From the NCBI GenBank assembly GCA_017458145.1, contig JAFTGA010000024.1:1-42597 (forward strand): 42,597 bases of DNA. Direction: 5' to 3'. The notes under the pieces were generated by a model. That model did no database searches. It was not told the DNA's origin and was given only the letters and a program-made list of their open reading frames with translations. A program made the translations under genes and the position numbers. Positions within the stretch are counted from its first letter, which is position 1, and each line of letters starts with the position of its first letter. Origin of the DNA: Bacteroidales bacterium. GTDB lineage: Bacteria; Bacteroidota; Bacteroidia; Bacteroidales; UBA932. This document shows, in pieces, positions 20,936 to 26,340 of this stretch.

Positions 20936-22240
20936 ATGAAACAGCTCAACACCAAATTGATGCATCCGGCGGAGCAGCTCGCGCTGATCATCGGCCGGAT
21001 CTACCGCAGCGGCCTCACGACGACTTCCGGCGGCAACCTGTCCATCATGGACGAAAACGGGGATATGTGGATCACCCCGGCCGGCATCGACAAGGGTTCC
21101 CTGACGGCGAAAGACATTATGTGCGTCAAGGCGGACGGCACCATCGTCGGTCCGCACCGCCCTTCCTCCGAGTATCCTTTCCACAAGGCGATCTACAAGA
21201 TCCGCCCCAAGATGCACGCGGTCATCCACGCGCATCCCCCGGGACTCGTGACTTTCAGCATCGTACACCAGATTCCGGACACCAGCATCCTGCCGCAGGC
21301 CCGCAATGTCTGCGGTCCGATCGGTTTCGCTCCGTATGACGTGCCGGGCAGCGCCGCCCTGGGCGAGAAGATCGCCGGCGAGTTCAAGAAGAATCCGGAC
21401 TACAAGGCCGTCATCATGGAGAACCACGGCGTGGTGCTCTGCGGCGAGGACATCGCCGACGCCTATCAGCGTTTCGAGACCCTCGAGCTCTGCGCCCGCA
21501 CCATCCTGAACGCCAAGACGCTCGGCGAGCCACACTACCTCAGCGAGGAGGAGCTGCTCTTCCACGAGACTCATCTAGTGGGTGATTACCAGCACTTTAT
21601 GAATGTCGAGCATCCCTCCGACGAGCGCGCCCTGCGGAGCGAGATCGTCCGGATGGTCCGCCGGGCCTGCGACCAGAAGCTGATGAGCAGTTCCTACGGC
21701 ACCGTCTCGATGCGCTGGCGCGGCAACGACTTCGTGATCACGCCTCCGGGCGTGCAGCGCTGGGACATCGACGAGGAGGACCTCGTGCAGATCAAGGACG
21801 GGATGGCCGAGGCCGGCAAGACCCCGAGCCACGCCACCGCGCTTCACTATGAGATCTACCGTCGCAACCCCAAGGTCAATGCGATCATCCTCACGCAGTG
21901 CCCTGCGCTGATGGGCTACTGCACCACGGATGCCGAGTTCAACGTCCGTACCATCCCGGAGAGTTGGATCTTCCTGCAGGATGTGCCCAAGTTCCCCTTC
22001 GGCGCCCACAGCACGGATCCCGGCAAGGTCGCCGAGGTCTTCCGGAACCGCCCCTGCGCGATGCTCTCCAACGACTCCGTCGTCGTGGCTTCCGACTCGC
22101 TGATCAACGCCTTCGACCGGCTCGAGGTCGCCGAGTTCGCCGCCAAGTCGCTCATCCTCGCGACTCCCGTCGGCAAGCTCCACCCGATTACCGACAAGGA
22201 AGTCGAAGACCTGCGCGTCGCCTTCCACGTCGGGGAATAG
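20936..22240 (+). CDS. Tandem class II aldolase/adducin-family protein; first domain intact, second degenerate
   Basis: 434 residues made of two class II aldolase (FucA/RhaD/AraD fold) domains. Domain 1 (about 8-200) keeps the full active site: SGGNLS (31-36), Glu79 in PSSEYPFHK, zinc ligands His98 and His100 in VIHAHP, and His164 in ENHGVVLCG. It should therefore cleave or epimerise a sugar phosphate, such as fuculose- or rhamnulose-1-phosphate to DHAP plus lactaldehyde, or act on ribulose-5-phosphate. Domain 2 (about 215-430) retains the fold pattern, but the equivalents are Ala300, Leu319, Gln321 and Asp380, so it cannot bind zinc. It has its own promoter and ends in the stem-loop at 22261. 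The nearby fusion aldolase at 29742 suggests a common deoxy-sugar pathway. Confidence 0.85.
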   Translation: MKQLNTKLMHPAEQLALIIGRIYRSGLTTTSGGNLSIMDENGDMWITPAGIDKGSLTAKDIMCVKADGTIVGPHRPSSEYPFHKAIYKIRPKMHAVIHAHPPGLVTFSIVHQIPDTSILPQARNVCGPIGFAPYDVPGSAALGEKIAGEFKKNPDYKAVIMENHGVVLCGEDIADAYQRFETLELCARTILNAKTLGEPHYLSEEELLFHETHLVGDYQHFMNVEHPSDERALRSEIVRMVRRACDQKLMSSSYGTVSMRWRGNDFVITPPGVQRWDIDEEDLVQIKDGMAEAGKTPSHATALHYEIYRRNPKVNAIILTQCPALMGYCTTDAEFNVRTIPESWIFLQDVPKFPFGAHSTDPGKVAEVFRNRPCAMLSNDSVVVASDSLINAFDRLEVAEFAAKSLILATPVGKLHPITDKEVEDLRVAFHVGE

Positions 22241-22260
22241 TTGTCTTGAAAATCAACTAC

Positions 22261-22304
22261 TTATAAAATAACCTTCGGTTTATTCTCCGAAGGTTATTTT
22301 ATAA
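22261..22304. repeat. Stem-loop repeat copy 1 (perfect 18-bp stem); also a bidirectional terminator
   Basis: The 18-base arm 22261-22278, ending AACCTTCGG, pairs perfectly with 22287-22304, starting CCGAAGGTT, around loop TTTATTCT. Weaker complementarity extends outward to ATCAA on the left and TTGAT on the right. It lies between the convergent aldolase and small membrane protein genes and could terminate both. The core arms and the loop ending TCT recur at 23822 and 24941. Confidence 0.85.
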
Positions 22305-22324
22305 TCCATTGATAACCAGCGCTC

Positions 22325-22603
22325 TCAAATCCGCGGTTTTCGGATGACCCGGATGATGAGTGAGAGCAGGTATACCAGCAGGCCGTAAATGATAGGGATT
22401 GTGCTGACCTTAAGTCCGCCGAACGCAACCAGCGGACTGATGGCACCTCCCGTCTGATACAGGGCGTCAAAAGCATTGTACAGTCCGAACAGCAAAGAGA
22501 GAAGTGCGACCACCGGAGCCGCAAGTCCGATTTCCTTGACCCACCGGGGTGCTTTCCAGGCTGCAAAAAGCAAAGCCACCAGCAGGATTGTAATCAGGCT
22601 CAT
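22325..22603 (-). CDS. Small two- to three-helix membrane protein, weakly ExbB/MotA-like
   Basis: 92 residues. Hydrophobic segments lie at about 1-15, 26-45 and 66-88, with positively charged ends (WKAPRWVKE, RVIRKPRI). The pattern GLYNAFDALYQTGGAISPLVAFGG followed by a hydrophobic helix recalls the conserved core of MotA/TolQ/ExbB channels, but the protein is far too short to be one. I do not recognise a family with confidence. Unusually for this window it has a good Shine-Dalgarno sequence (AAGGAGG, minus strand 22619-22613, nine bases before the ATG). Its start overlaps the stop of a possible 49-codon upstream ORF as ATGA. Convergent with the aldolase. Confidence 0.6.
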   Translation of the reverse strand: MSLITILLVALLFAAWKAPRWVKEIGLAAPVVALLSLLFGLYNAFDALYQTGGAISPLVAFGGLKVSTIPIIYGLLVYLLSLIIRVIRKPRI

Positions 22604-22749
22604 CCACAGGGGCCTCCTTGCGAGAAGAGGACAGGAAGGGACGAGGTTTGTGGATCTGCGGCCTGGAGCGCTTCGGGCGGTGACTGGAACGAATTGGACA
22701 GCGCCTGCAGGGGAACGGAAAGGAGTGCTTTCTGAATCAAGACATTCAT
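22600..22749 (-). CDS. Possible 49-residue upstream ORF coupled to the small membrane protein
   Basis: Starts at an ATG 28 nt downstream of a minus-strand TAnnTTTG element (22777-22784) and ends in TGA overlapping the ATG of the 92-residue gene (ATGA). The peptide begins MNVLIQKALLSVPLQALSNS and matches nothing I know. The position between promoter and gene suggests a leader peptide or a coupled small protein. The frame could equally be open by chance in GC-rich DNA. Confidence 0.3.
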   Translation of the reverse strand: MNVLIQKALLSVPLQALSNSFQSPPEALQAADPQTSSLPVLFSQGGPCG

Positions 22750-22776
22750 AAGTGGTATGGGATTAGTGTTCTGATG

Positions 22777-22784
22777 CAAAGGTA
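22777..22784 (-). promoter_or_regulatory. -7 element TACCTTTG (minus strand) for the small membrane protein unit
   Basis: TAnnTTTG read on the minus strand, about 174 nt upstream of the 92-residue gene and 28 nt upstream of the possible 49-codon ORF. It lies in the divergent gap 22604-22894. Confidence 0.5.
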
Positions 22785-22879
22785 AGCAACCTCCCATAAT
22801 CTGAAAGTCTGAAACCCCTGTAGCGTTGTCAAATCCCCCTGTCTGTCAGAGAGGGAGCGGAAGATAGCGGAATTATCCG

Positions 22880-22887
22880 TATTTTTG
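22880..22887 (+). promoter_or_regulatory. -7 element TATTTTTG for the 83-residue membrane protein
   Basis: TAnnTTTG match separated from the ATG at 22895 by seven bases, implying a transcript with practically no leader. Confidence 0.55.
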
Positions 22888-22894
22888 TCTTGAG

Positions 22895-23146
22895 ATGAAG
22901 AAAGCGCTCTGCCAAGTCGGATATTACCTTGCCGCCATGATCCTGGTGGCGGTGATTCTGCTGAGTTTCGGCTATACTTTCGGCGAAGCGCTTTTCGTCG
23001 GGACCATGTTCCTGCCCGGAGCCCTGGCGGCCCGCTGGCTCTATCCGAAGATTTCCTTCGTGCGCCGCGGGGAGGGGATCCGGGACTGCCTGTTCGTGAC
23101 GGCCGGCCTGCTTGCCGGGGAAATCCTGCTGGTCCGGCTCCTGTAG
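22895..23146 (+). CDS. Small hypothetical membrane protein
   Basis: 83 residues with two to three hydrophobic helices (about 8-26, 30-47 and 64-82) separated by a basic loop (KISFVRRGEG). The glycine-rich helices (LSFGYTFGEALFVGTMFLPGALAARWL) suggest tight packing in the inner membrane. I do not recognise the family. The start is supported by a promoter element seven bases upstream and an MKK N-terminus. The downstream gene has its own promoter-like element, so it is probably a single-gene unit. Nothing in the context indicates function. Confidence 0.65.
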   Translation: MKKALCQVGYYLAAMILVAVILLSFGYTFGEALFVGTMFLPGALAARWLYPKISFVRRGEGIRDCLFVTAGLLAGEILLVRLL

Positions 23147-23195
23147 GATCACGAAAATAATCCGTGATACGGAGACAATTTCTGCAAGAATTGCG

Positions 23196-23203
23196 TATCT
23201 TCG
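23196..23203 (+). promoter_or_regulatory. Near-consensus -7 element TATCTTCG for the DUF2271 lipoprotein
   Basis: One mismatch from TAnnTTTG, 21 nt before the ATG at 23225, in the 78-nt gap after the small membrane protein. Confidence 0.4.
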
Positions 23204-23224
23204 CATAAACCAATTTCTTGCAGT

Positions 23225-23800
23225 ATGAGAAAAGCATTTTCGCTCCTGATGCTCTGCGCCGCCACGGCGCTGATGGCCGCCTGCGCTCCCAAGCCGGGCT
23301 GCCTGGAGATTTCTTTCAACTATACCAAGCAGGCCGGCGGCGGATCCAACCAGTATGCTGTCTGGGTTGAGAATGCCCAGGGGCAGGTGGTCAAGACCCT
23401 GTTCGTGACCGAATTTACCGCCAAGGGCCGCAGCCGCGACGGCTCCAAGCCGCAGCGCGGCTACACCTTCCGCACCTCCTGCGTGCCGACCTGGGTCCAG
23501 CATGTAGATGCCAACAGCTTGACGGACGGGCAGATGGACGCCTTCACCGGCGCCACGCCCGCCGAGGGCGGCGTCCAGACCTTCACCTGGGACTTCACCG
23601 ACCAGGCAGGCCTGCCTGTCGCCAAGGGAACGTATCGCCTCTATGTTGAAGCCACCTACAACGGCGCCAGCGTCGTGACGCACTGCGGAGAAGTCGCCTA
23701 TGGCGCTCCCGCGGGCGACCTCCCGGTCGAGACCTCCTACATCGAGAAGACAGACGAACGCATTGACATGATCACAGAAGTCAGGGCCCGGAAACTGTGA
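23225..23800 (+). CDS. DUF2271-family lipoprotein
   Basis: 191 residues. A lipoprotein signal with lipobox LMAAC (Cys20) is followed by a DUF2271-type beta-rich domain (about 26-170). The typical phrases are present: NQYAVWVENAQGQVVKTLFV, TEFTAKGRSRDGSKPQRGYTF as a broken stretch, and the hallmark AFTGATPAEGG followed by TWDFTDQAGLPVAKGTYRLYVEA as overlapping motifs, an FlgD/Ig-like fold. DUF2271 proteins are envelope proteins of unknown biochemical role, often found near flavin- or iron-linked membrane proteins in other genomes. Here the neighbours are a small membrane protein and a transposase, which gives no clue. The stop is followed 21 nt later by a stem-loop of the repeat family, which probably terminates transcription. 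Confidence 0.78.
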   Translation: MRKAFSLLMLCAATALMAACAPKPGCLEISFNYTKQAGGGSNQYAVWVENAQGQVVKTLFVTEFTAKGRSRDGSKPQRGYTFRTSCVPTWVQHVDANSLTDGQMDAFTGATPAEGGVQTFTWDFTDQAGLPVAKGTYRLYVEATYNGASVVTHCGEVAYGAPAGDLPVETSYIEKTDERIDMITEVRARKL

Positions 23801-23821
23801 CCCCTGGCATTTAATCACTTG

Positions 23822-23859
23822 CAAAACAACCTTCGGAAGAATCTCCGAAGGTTGTTTTG
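23822..23859. repeat. Stem-loop repeat copy 2, upstream of the RAYT gene
   Basis: A perfect 15-bp stem, CAAAACAACCTTCGG (23822-23836) with 23845-23859, around loop AAGAATCT. Relative to copy 1 the stem shows a compensatory T-A to C-G change next to the core, so pairing rather than sequence is conserved. It lies 21 nt after the DUF2271 stop and about 170 nt before the RAYT start. The rest of the gap (23860-24031) is AT-rich with no other clear feature. Confidence 0.85.
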
Positions 23860-24031
23860 TATCTATTTGATATTCAAAAAAAAGATGTGGAGGCATTCAA
23901 AATCATATAAAACCAGTGGTTAAACGTTTGCTCCGCCGGCATCTGCAGATCTTAAAAGATTGTGTTTCTGCTATTTAGAATAAACGGACAATAATCAACT
24001 GCGAAACGGTTAATTGTATCGATCTTTGGGC

Positions 24032-24922
24032 ATGACATCGATTCGCAGAAACAGTATCCATGGCTATGACCATATTTATTTTTACTCAGCAGCGGACTGC
24101 CTGGTATGGTTCACGCAGCTCTGTATCCTGGCCCGAAAATACAATATCCGCATTTTGTCGCTCTGCATTATGCTCAATCATTATCACATCCAGGTGAGAG
24201 CTTCCTCTGCGAAGGCGTTGTCTTCTTTTATGCGGGATTTGACAGCGCAGTTTACCCGGATGTATAATCGCCGGTATGCCCTGATAGGAAGATTGTTTTC
24301 AGGGCAGTTTGCCAATGCCTCGAAGACAAAGGACCAGAAAATCAAAGAGAATTACATATACATCTGCAACAATCCCGTTGTCAAACGGGCTGTGTCTCGT
24401 GCCGAGTCGTACCGATGGAATTTCCTCGCTTACATGGATTGCCCGAATCCATTTTCCAAGCCCGCCGACCCTGACACATGCTCAGAGGCAATGAAACTGG
24501 TCCTTGCTGCAGTGCGCGTGCGTCGGAAGATGAATCGCCCTGTTGATTATCTGTTTTTCGAAGGGGCATATTCCCGCTTAACTGACGAAGAGAAACGGCA
24601 AGTGCTGGATTATATTGTTGCGCAGTACAACGTCATTGATTATGCGGAAGCCAGGAAAAAGTGGGGTGATTACTCCACGATATGCACAATGCTGGCGACA
24701 GTTTCCGGATCTGAATATGATCTGGCTGAAGAATCTGTCAAAGAGGACTACCGGCATTACTACAAGATGATCCGCTTGTCAAAAAACGAAGGATACGACT
24801 TGACCCGGACTCGTTTGGGAGGACTGCCGCTGTCGGAACAATACAGATTGGCCGTTTTGTTTCAGGATGAGGTGGGCGCCTCAGCGGCAGAGATCACCAA
24901 GTTTTTGCATGCGCCGTTTTGA
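24032..24922 (+). CDS. REP-associated tyrosine transposase (RAYT / Y1 transposase-like)
   Basis: 296 residues from the ATG at 24032; an in-frame TTG at 24014 is an alternative, but ATCTTTG (24022-24028) just before the ATG resembles a -7 element and favours the ATG. The HUH motif is in CIMLNHYHIQV (His50, His52). The single catalytic tyrosine is Tyr108 or Tyr110 in ENYIYICNNPVVKRA, the usual Y1_Tnp spacing. A long C-terminal extension (about 130-296) ends in an HTH-like segment (SAAEITKFLHAPF). Such enzymes nick and rejoin single-stranded DNA at hairpins, and RAYTs act on REP palindromes. The gene is flanked by stem-loops at 23822 and 24941, and its base composition is visibly richer in A+T than the neighbours, consistent with horizontal origin. 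No terminal repeats or second ORF mark it as a complete IS. Confidence 0.85.
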   Translation: MTSIRRNSIHGYDHIYFYSAADCLVWFTQLCILARKYNIRILSLCIMLNHYHIQVRASSAKALSSFMRDLTAQFTRMYNRRYALIGRLFSGQFANASKTKDQKIKENYIYICNNPVVKRAVSRAESYRWNFLAYMDCPNPFSKPADPDTCSEAMKLVLAAVRVRRKMNRPVDYLFFEGAYSRLTDEEKRQVLDYIVAQYNVIDYAEARKKWGDYSTICTMLATVSGSEYDLAEESVKEDYRHYYKMIRLSKNEGYDLTRTRLGGLPLSEQYRLAVLFQDEVGASAAEITKFLHAPF

Positions 24923-24940
24923 CAGGGCTTGATTCTCAGT

Positions 24941-24989
24941 AACTTATAAATTAACCTTCGGAGTTTTCTCCGAAGGTTAATTCGTAAGT
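24941..24989. repeat. Stem-loop repeat copy 3, downstream of the RAYT gene
   Basis: A stem of about 20 bp pairs 24942-24961 (ending AACCTTCGG) with 24970-24989 (starting CCGAAGGTT) around loop AGTTTTCT, with two adjacent non-Watson-Crick positions. The right flank continues as AGTTGAT, matching the outer arms of copy 1. It lies 18 nt after the RAYT stop. The remaining gap to 25071 contains no other recognisable feature. Confidence 0.85.
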
Positions 24990-25071
24990 AGTTGATTATC
25001 AATTACCGGACGATGGACGATAGATGTCCGAAGGACAAGCAGTCAGTCCGTCAGGCGATACTTGTGCCGGT

Positions 25072-26340
25072 TTACAGCTCGTCGGCGTGGGCGAGGAGGT
25101 ATTTCTCCGCCTCGGCGCTCCACAGGCCGTTGTGGGCCTTGCAGATGCGGTCGAGTTCGTCATAGACGGGTTTGCCGATCTTGCCGAAGTCCGCGATGGC
25201 GGTGAGCGGCATCGTCACGTGGGTGTAGATGAGCTTCTTGCCGCCCGGGATGTCCGGGAGGTTCAAGGTGGTCTCGACCACGGCGTTGAGGCCGCCGATG
25301 TGGGTCACGAGGCCGGCGGGGTCCATGCCGAGACCCATGTAGTGGAGGGCCTCCTTCATGTCATCGGTATTGCCGCCGGAGGTGCCCACGACGTGCGTGG
25401 AGTTGTAGTGGACGTTGTAGAAGTTGAACGGAGCCTTGAACGGGGACTTGCCGGGTCCGGCGAAGAAGTTCAGGCAGCCGTCGAAGGCGAGGATGTCGTC
25501 GGCCTGCTCGACCACCGGGGCCACCGGGGCGAAGCAGAAGACATCATCGTAGCCCTCTCCGCCGGCGATATCCTTGAGGAGTTCGACCGGGTTGTCAACA
25601 GCCGTGTTGACATAGTGCAGCTCGATGCCGCGGCTCTTGGCGAATTCTACGGTATAGAGCGAAGCGGCACGGTCGAGGCGCTCCTGGTTGATGTCGGTCA
25701 CGACCAGCAGCGAAGGACGCATGTCGTCGCGGTGGAGGACGTAGTTGATGGCGGCAAGCCCCATCGGGCCCACGCTGGCGAGCAGCGCCATCTTGCCGCC
25801 CTGCTTGATCTCCATGTCGTGCACATACTTGCCGGGGTGCGTGTGGTAGTTGGCGTGCATGGCGCCGATGACACAGCTCAGCGGCTCGCTCAGGGAAGCC
25901 GGATAGAAGGCCTCGCCCTTGTAGGGCAGCAGGCAGCCCTGCTGCATCACCTCGGCCGGGATCACCACGTAGGTGGCGTCTCCGCCGATGTAGGGGTAGG
26001 AGTATCCCGGAGCGCTGTAGATGCCGACGGGACCGCCTTCGTAGGTGAGCGCGGGCTGGATGGAGAATTTGTCGCCGGGCTTGAACTCGCCCTGCCATTT
26101 CGCGCCGACTTCGACGATCTCTCCGGCAAACTCGTGGCCGATGATGGTCGGATGCTCGGCGACGTCGTTGGGGACACGCTTGTGGGAGGCACCCTGGTGG
26201 GCGGCCTTGTAGGAAGACATACAGATGCTGTCGCTGACCACCTTGGCCAGGATCTCATCTTCTTTGATCTGCGGGAGCTCGAACTCTTCGAGTCTCAGGT
26301 CATTCACGCCGTAGAGGCGTACAGCTTTGGTTTTCATCAA
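25072..26340 (-). CDS. Zinc-dependent medium-chain dehydrogenase, L-sorbose-1-phosphate reductase-like
   Basis: 422 residues. An N-terminal GroES-like domain has a catalytic-zinc Cys in SDSICMSSYKAAHQGASHKR (about residue 40) and the GHEFAGEIVEVG motif (about 69-80). A Rossmann domain contains LASVGPMGLAAINY and LVVTDINQERLDRA, and later GTSGGNTDDMKEAL. The CMSSYKAAHQG signature, the PGYSYPYIGGDATYV insert and the overall length resemble the SorE-type sorbose-1-phosphate reductases rather than ordinary alcohol dehydrogenases. The likely reaction is NAD(P)-dependent interconversion of a ketose-1-phosphate and a hexitol phosphate. It is the last gene of the long minus-strand run, 17 nt after the S41 peptidase gene. 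Start alternatives are 26340 and 26337. Exact substrate not determinable. Confidence 0.75.
   Translation of the reverse strand: MMKTKAVRLYGVNDLRLEEFELPQIKEDEILAKVVSDSICMSSYKAAHQGASHKRVPNDVAEHPTIIGHEFAGEIVEVGAKWQGEFKPGDKFSIQPALTYEGGPVGIYSAPGYSYPYIGGDATYVVIPAEVMQQGCLLPYKGEAFYPASLSEPLSCVIGAMHANYHTHPGKYVHDMEIKQGGKMALLASVGPMGLAAINYVLHRDDMRPSLLVVTDINQERLDRAASLYTVEFAKSRGIELHYVNTAVDNPVELLKDIAGGEGYDDVFCFAPVAPVVEQADDILAFDGCLNFFAGPGKSPFKAPFNFYNVHYNSTHVVGTSGGNTDDMKEALHYMGLGMDPAGLVTHIGGLNAVVETTLNLPDIPGGKKLIYTHVTMPLTAIADFGKIGKPVYDELDRICKAHNGLWSAEAEKYLLAHADEL

Follow-up and report, generated by a model that had tools for sequence, protein, structure and literature searches.

Background

Repetitive extragenic palindromic (REP) sequences of the GTAG type, such as those of Escherichia coli and Stenotrophomonas, form REPtrons together with REP-associated tyrosine transposases (RAYTs); in these systems a gene for a Y1 HUH transposase lies beside recurring, mainly intergenic palindromes (PMC3733652, PMC8266576). 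In this study, a RAYT-like gene and three related hairpins were analyzed in a 42,597-nucleotide stretch of DNA from a Bacteroidales bacterium (contig JAFTGA010000024.1 of assembly GCA_017458145.1; this whole stretch is called the window), and both were followed through related genomes. The gene, at 24032-24922, probably encodes, or once encoded, a RAYT-like transposase of single-stranded DNA (ssDNA), with the hairpins as its cognate, non-autonomous REP-like elements, and the system most likely works like a REPtron. Statements on published systems refer here to the cited passages of each paper.

Known REPs are placed much as these hairpins are, mostly between genes and near 3' ends (PMC3733652), and usually exceed 100 copies per genome (PMC2817692). 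The weight of stem, loop and GTAG motif differs between groups (PMC8266576), and recognition of REPs by RAYTs has been worked out with a few proteobacterial enzymes (PMC3733652, PMC8266576, PMC6006769). Repeats of a CGTC type are described in Bacteroidetes without a dedicated transposase (PMC3733652), and Bacteroidetes genes of TnpA-Y1 subclass 2.6 (RAYT group 5) are described as flanked by atypical secondary structures that lack GT[AG]G and recur at other places of the genome (PMC6006769). RAYT-like genes have also been reported with inverted repeats that are repeated in the genome and partly self-complementary (PMC3733652).

Hairpins and RAYT-like gene of the window

A first-pass annotation had placed three hairpins in the window and a RAYT gene between two of them. 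Direct reading of the window confirmed both points: the core AACCTTCGG-N8-CCGAAGGTT lies at 22270-22295, 23828-23853 and 24953-24978, copies 2 and 3 bracket the gene, and no core match with 3 or fewer mismatches was obtained in 100 dinucleotide shuffles of the window. The features of the system are as follows.

22247..22318, no strand assigned: E1 (copy 1); box, 18-bp stem, 8-nt loop, stem, box
23805..23876, no strand assigned: E2 (copy 2), upstream of the RAYT gene; its left box is degenerate
24032..24922, plus strand: RAYT-like Y1 HUH transposase gene, 296 aa, with NHYH and YICNNP motifs
24930..25001, no strand assigned: E3 (copy 3), downstream of the RAYT gene

Each element is about 72 nt long: a TGATNATCA-like box is followed, after a short spacer, by an 18-bp stem with its 8-nt loop and then by the mirror image, with one axis common to the pairing of stem and boxes. 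The stem consensus, taken from the window copies aligned with other copies in the genome, is TTACAAATTAACCTTCGG. The flanks ATCAA and TTGAT, annotated as partly conserved, proved to be part of the larger box at each end. Folding as ssDNA yielded -18.1 to -18.7 kcal/mol for the 72-nt window elements, whereas the means of their shuffles lay at -3.5 to -4.7 (z -7.2 to -8.4). Since the elements are near-palindromes and the model score is obtained on both strands, their reported orientation in common with the RAYT gene carries little weight. The loop, said always to end in TCT, does so in all three window copies but in 6 of 9 copies genome-wide. Changes on both arms, from which maintenance of the structure had been argued, are real among seven genome copies (5 of 28 pairs), and pairing holds in 89.3% of cells, as opposed to 23.5-50.0% when slid; on these few sequences, however, the letter-shuffle control was not beaten, 119 of 500 shuffles reaching the pairing percentage and 37 of 500 the covariation score. 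An identity from Rfam was considered and rejected, as just three sub-threshold matches were found, all at copy 2, and these were taken as chance.

The start of the RAYT gene was taken as the ATG at 24032; a longer open reading frame (ORF) begins with TTG at 24014. The product matches PF01797 (Y1_Tnp) with 31.7 bits, above the curated cut-off of 23; 27 of 28 family members match at E<=0.1, and both histidines of the HUH motif and the tyrosine of YxxNN are invariant in 28 aligned sequences. Its score with NF047646, the NCBIfam equivalog for REP-associated tyrosine transposases, was 39.4 bits, below the cut-off of 80. The profile of 28 relatives weakly reached the transposase structures 2xo6, 2xm3 and 2xma (E about 0.007), which we take to be ISDra2 TnpA; a search of PHROGs and a single-sequence search of PDB returned no match. 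The four named relatives of this RAYT are all from Bacteroidales metagenome assemblies of goat, roe deer or red deer.

Inside the gene, 24239-24268 on the plus strand matches TTGACA-18-TATAAT at 12 of 12 positions. Because Bacteroidota promoters differ from this type, the match is probably due to chance.

Comparison with described systems

Like GTAG REPtrons, the system has a RAYT flanked by repeat copies (copies 2 and 3 in the window and, by the flank test given below, 25 of 37 cases in the genus), but it has no GT[AG]G foot (4 of 85 elements), its elements are of about 72 nt with two boxes, and its protein scores below the NCBIfam cut-off. Since its hairpins lack this foot and its protein does not reach that cut-off, it is named here RAYT/REP-like, a variant without the GT[AG]G foot. 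Dispersed, mainly intergenic copies are shared with classical REPs, although the 9 copies in the home genome (G000) and 20 in genome G008 are fewer than the usual >100 (PMC2817692).

The occurrence in Bacteroidetes, flanking structures without GT[AG]G and copies in the genome are shared with subclass 2.6 (PMC6006769). That subclass is described with 179 aa, a WQ motif, YIH[QN]NP and a median HuH-to-Y distance of 82, whereas the proteins found here have about 300 aa, YICNNP and a spacing of 61, and WQ is absent from the window protein; the two are set apart by length, motifs and spacing. The "double foot" REPs of subclass 2.4 are likewise long hairpins that carry a foot at either end, with a YIxNNP motif in the protein, but their foot is GT[AG]G, the HuH-to-Y median is 88 and the protein has 194 aa. 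TIRtrons (TIRYT), which pair RAYT-like genes with inverted repeats unrelated to GTAG REPs, some of them self-complementary and genome-repeated, were compared by description only; a fixed box frame over changing cores is not described for them in the cited passages (PMC3733652). A full-text search of the open-access literature, judged by titles and abstracts, gave no description of the boxed hairpin family.

Copies and co-occurrence in the genus

The home genome, 80.5% complete in 64 contigs, has 8 hairpin places by exact-core search and 9 by model R2, and there are 20 in G008, at least 34 in G061 and at least 14 in G062. The restriction to three copies that the first-pass annotation had named as favoring ordinary terminators was thus not found. 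Among 61 genomes, the hairpin model of the window fell below E 1e-9 in G000 and G008 alone, the two genomes with a closely related RAYT.

The main RAYT family was detected in 22 of the 37 genomes of the genus (E 4e-30 or better; next best match 1.6e-7). Profile search of the 15 other genomes showed weak partial matches only, the strongest being 68 bits in G035; the same profile gave 377 and 383 bits in G015 and G036. A broader hairpin model, R3, was built from 23 boxed elements, including elements of G027 and G030, and its matches count both strands, places being about half as many. R3 matches (E<=0.01) were present in 24 of 37 genomes: 20 of the 22 that carry the main-family RAYT and 4 of the 15 that do not (Fisher p = 9e-5), with medians of 18 and 0 matches, respectively. 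The boxed hairpins are therefore not equally common in relatives lacking the RAYT, the other outcome that had been held to favor terminators, with G030 as a strong exception. Over 149 genomes of the order, the home genome included, R3 gave one weak foreign match, in G158; this search applied stricter filters and scored only about 32 candidates in each genome, so it does not decide how far the family extends beyond the genus. Plasmid records contained one distant partial match.

Hairpin frame and probable cognate cores

In scans of RAYT loci, the gene was flanked on either side by hairpins that shared a single core, and this core differed between RAYTs, for example TCCCTTCCC, GACCTCTGGG, ATCCTCGGC, CTGCGTGC, ACGTCC and TTGGTTGG. 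In a flank test without hairpin selection, the 5' flank of each RAYT was compared with its 3' flank against the 99th percentile of mismatched pairs; L099 and L100, broken genes in which no open frame was found, were left out. Twenty-five of the 37 main-family RAYTs passed. Twenty-three elements of equal width could be aligned gap-free, with 158 double-change cells against 58 in shuffled alignments; this covariation is partly by construction, because the parser that chose the elements demanded boxes and pairing. The frame and boxes recur, whereas the core stem is usually a different one for each gene.

Correspondence between elements and RAYTs was measured by comparing the central 34 nt of 85 elements from 19 genomes, window copy 1 included, with the flanks of 50 RAYT loci (39 of the main and 11 of a second family). 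The RAYT flanks of the same genome were strictly best for 30 of 85 elements, whereas 500 label shuffles gave a mean of 3.5 and a maximum of 10. Elements of G000/G008 and of G021/G026 count as misses because their shared cores tie or lose narrowly, and for the cores of G007 and G024 a matching RAYT was found in other genomes only. Together with copy number and co-occurrence, this match supports the earlier proposal that the hairpins are plausible cognate REP elements of the RAYT.

Several other repeats and genes were observed. L011 (G000:C7:43011-43211) is another, distantly related RAYT-like gene of the home genome; it encodes 297 aa and has no boxed hairpins, and other repeats lie close to some of its relatives (L054, L104). 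L009 (G000:C9:1-228) scores higher as a Y1 transposase (88 bits) and is truncated where its contig ends. In relatives (L155, L157, L060 and L101), a palindrome of the CGTC type, gtcattc-cggcttgaccgg-gaatc, stands immediately next to the outer box of RAYT-locus elements; a regular-expression search found it beside none of 85 other elements. A further repeated palindrome, GATCCCCGATCAGGTCGGGGATG, has short matches at the right flank of L162, in contigs C60, C63 and C6 of G000, in G003 and in G014:C17.

Rearrangements at the locus

The neighborhood of the system in the window includes the following features.

20936..22240, plus strand: class II aldolase-like gene, left neighbor and gene-order marker
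22325..23800, no strand assigned: segment from E1 to E2, with a small ORF, an ORF and a DUF2271 gene
25072..26340, minus strand: zinc-type dehydrogenase gene, right neighbor of the RAYT locus in four species

The gene order aldolase, E1, small ORF, ORF, DUF2271, E2, RAYT, E3, dehydrogenase is common to the window and L157 (genome G062), with E1 lying between the convergent aldolase gene and small ORF. The part that runs from the small ORF through DUF2271 has the inverted orientation at L155, where both joints have an element and one additional gene is present. G008 has a matching joint of DUF2271, element and aldolase and, on a separate contig, a RAYT with an element on either side. As each gene order is backed by two assemblies, assembly error is unlikely. 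In G012 and G025, which have no boxed hairpins, the dehydrogenase and aldolase genes are tandem neighbors.

Some elements keep their place between species: C27, C44a and C44b of G000 are found in place in G008, and C42 of G000 in G061 and G062; for C42 the two arms show compensated differences, within a region about 84% identical. The orthologous position of the G008 site L159 is unoccupied both in G062, where there is no trace, and in G000, where a box-like TTGACTGTCA is present. At five of seven G008 sites sought in G000, homology breaks off no more than about 90 bp from the element on one side or both, and two of these breaks are gaps the size of a gene; the elements may cause such breaks or tolerate them. 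In L306 (G061:C16:96500-115500), and also in L308 (G008:C31), a run of similar lipoprotein-like genes is separated by boxed-family elements whose right box extends into the start of the next gene, and a link of the elements to tandem gene duplication is possible there.

Evaluation of the possible explanations

A number of observations weigh against the proposed RAYT/REP-like system. A GT[AG]G motif between box and stem was found in 4 of 85 elements (either strand, positions 9-20), so that the foot of classical REPs is wanting, and the placement and, in part, the build of the elements resemble those of bidirectional terminators. R3 matches occur in four genomes without the main-family RAYT (G001, G011, G027 and G030); G030, 97% complete, has 82 matches, and neither sequence nor profile search found a RAYT in it. 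Conversely, R3 matched nothing in G015 and G036, which both carry the RAYT. The flank test was failed by 12 of 37 main-family RAYTs, and its control was not clean, because 5 of 11 members of the second, distant RAYT-like family intended for this purpose passed, with other repeats. Of the seven G008 sites sought in G000, one had no match and one was contiguous without the hairpin, clean insertions thus being rare. RAYT identity and flank similarity were uncorrelated among 28 RAYTs (Mantel Spearman 0.04, 294 of 1000 permutations as high), and the pairs with the most similar flanks were 46-73% identical; this may be read as fast turnover of the core and speaks against strict co-divergence. Finally, nine residues after Tyr16, present in 27 aligned relatives, are missing solely in the window RAYT.

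The window RAYT may accordingly be decaying, and the RAYT gene of L157 is short by about 550 bp; to judge from these lesions, either protein may be inactive. Hairpin places number 20 and at least 34 where the RAYT is undamaged (G008, G061) and 9 and at least 14 where it is damaged (G000, G062), which, in four genomes of unequal completeness, gives only a hint of more copies with an undamaged enzyme.

Only 9 of 82 elements lie inside an ORF, compared with 1353 of 1640 points drawn at random from these loci, and 72 classified elements have 42 convergent, 27 tandem and 3 divergent pairs of gene neighbors. This position, just behind stop codons and mostly between convergent genes, would suit ordinary bidirectional intrinsic terminators that resemble each other, with the RAYT as a bystander, and many elements have an A-rich foot, a GC core and a T-rich end; the many elements retained in G030 point the same way. 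A terminator scan, which found 21 in the region against 15.8 expected, was passed by copy 2 but failed by the other two window copies. Moreover, terminators do not need outer boxes, a core shared within each genome or absence from 11 of the 15 genus members without the RAYT, and GTAG and CGTC REPs have been reported in such positions too. We therefore regard terminators alone as unlikely; the placement fits a by-function in termination, which may be a secondary role of the elements.

It is also conceivable that the RAYT and its two hairpins move as one unit resembling an insertion sequence with palindromic ends (a "TIRtron"), lone hairpins being leftovers. Such units are described (PMC3733652), both flanks share sequence in the 25 RAYTs mentioned, and the loops are oppositely oriented in some cases (L034, L036, L092, L096). 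However, P0001 matches once in its own genome, in other genomes the matches diverge and are not near-identical copies, and the RAYT stands beside the same dehydrogenase gene in four species, which makes this explanation rather improbable. The boxes are themselves palindromic, like sites of dimeric proteins, and the elements occur at homology breaks and inversion joints and in G030, where no RAYT was found; host-protein or recombination sites, spread and homogenized without the RAYT, whose gene would be just one flanked locus, might account for this. As the core tracks the RAYT of the genome and flanks RAYT genes on both sides, we consider such sites very unlikely.

Proposed mechanism and implications

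For the REP-like system that we prefer, the RAYT would recognize one strand of the element, folded into a hairpin on ssDNA such as the lagging-strand template. The variable core stem would provide cognate specificity. Guiding or cleavage would fall to the shared boxes with their TTAC/GTAA feet, a common part that takes the place of the GTAG of classical REPs. Through cutting and rejoining now and then, copies would be placed or renewed and distant ones could be joined. Copies would be retained chiefly right after stop codons, a position in which a symmetric hairpin would be harmless or a useful two-way terminator, and multi-copy palindromes might also serve as joints for local inversions. We infer from the comparisons above that the RAYT would bind, cleave and mobilize these hairpins and may be the cause of the patterns observed.

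A broader proposal is offered tentatively, as a possibility that we find doubtful. The genus may possess lineage-wide ssDNA transposases with exchangeable hairpin addresses, in which a frame of two palindromic boxes and TTAC/GTAA feet is fixed and the core turns over so fast that most RAYTs of the genus have their own; the enzyme or its palindromes might then actively make local inversions and rearrangements.

The host belongs to the gut or rumen Bacteroidales, and its relatives keep the same arrangement with other hairpin sequences. With dozens of related RAYTs and different cores in one frame, this single genus provides a natural set of enzymes and targets for swap experiments, which could show how a hairpin-reading nuclease changes its target. 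The damaged and undamaged RAYTs of sister species make the dependence of copy number on the enzyme testable, and the elements at inversion joints do the same for a role in rearrangement.

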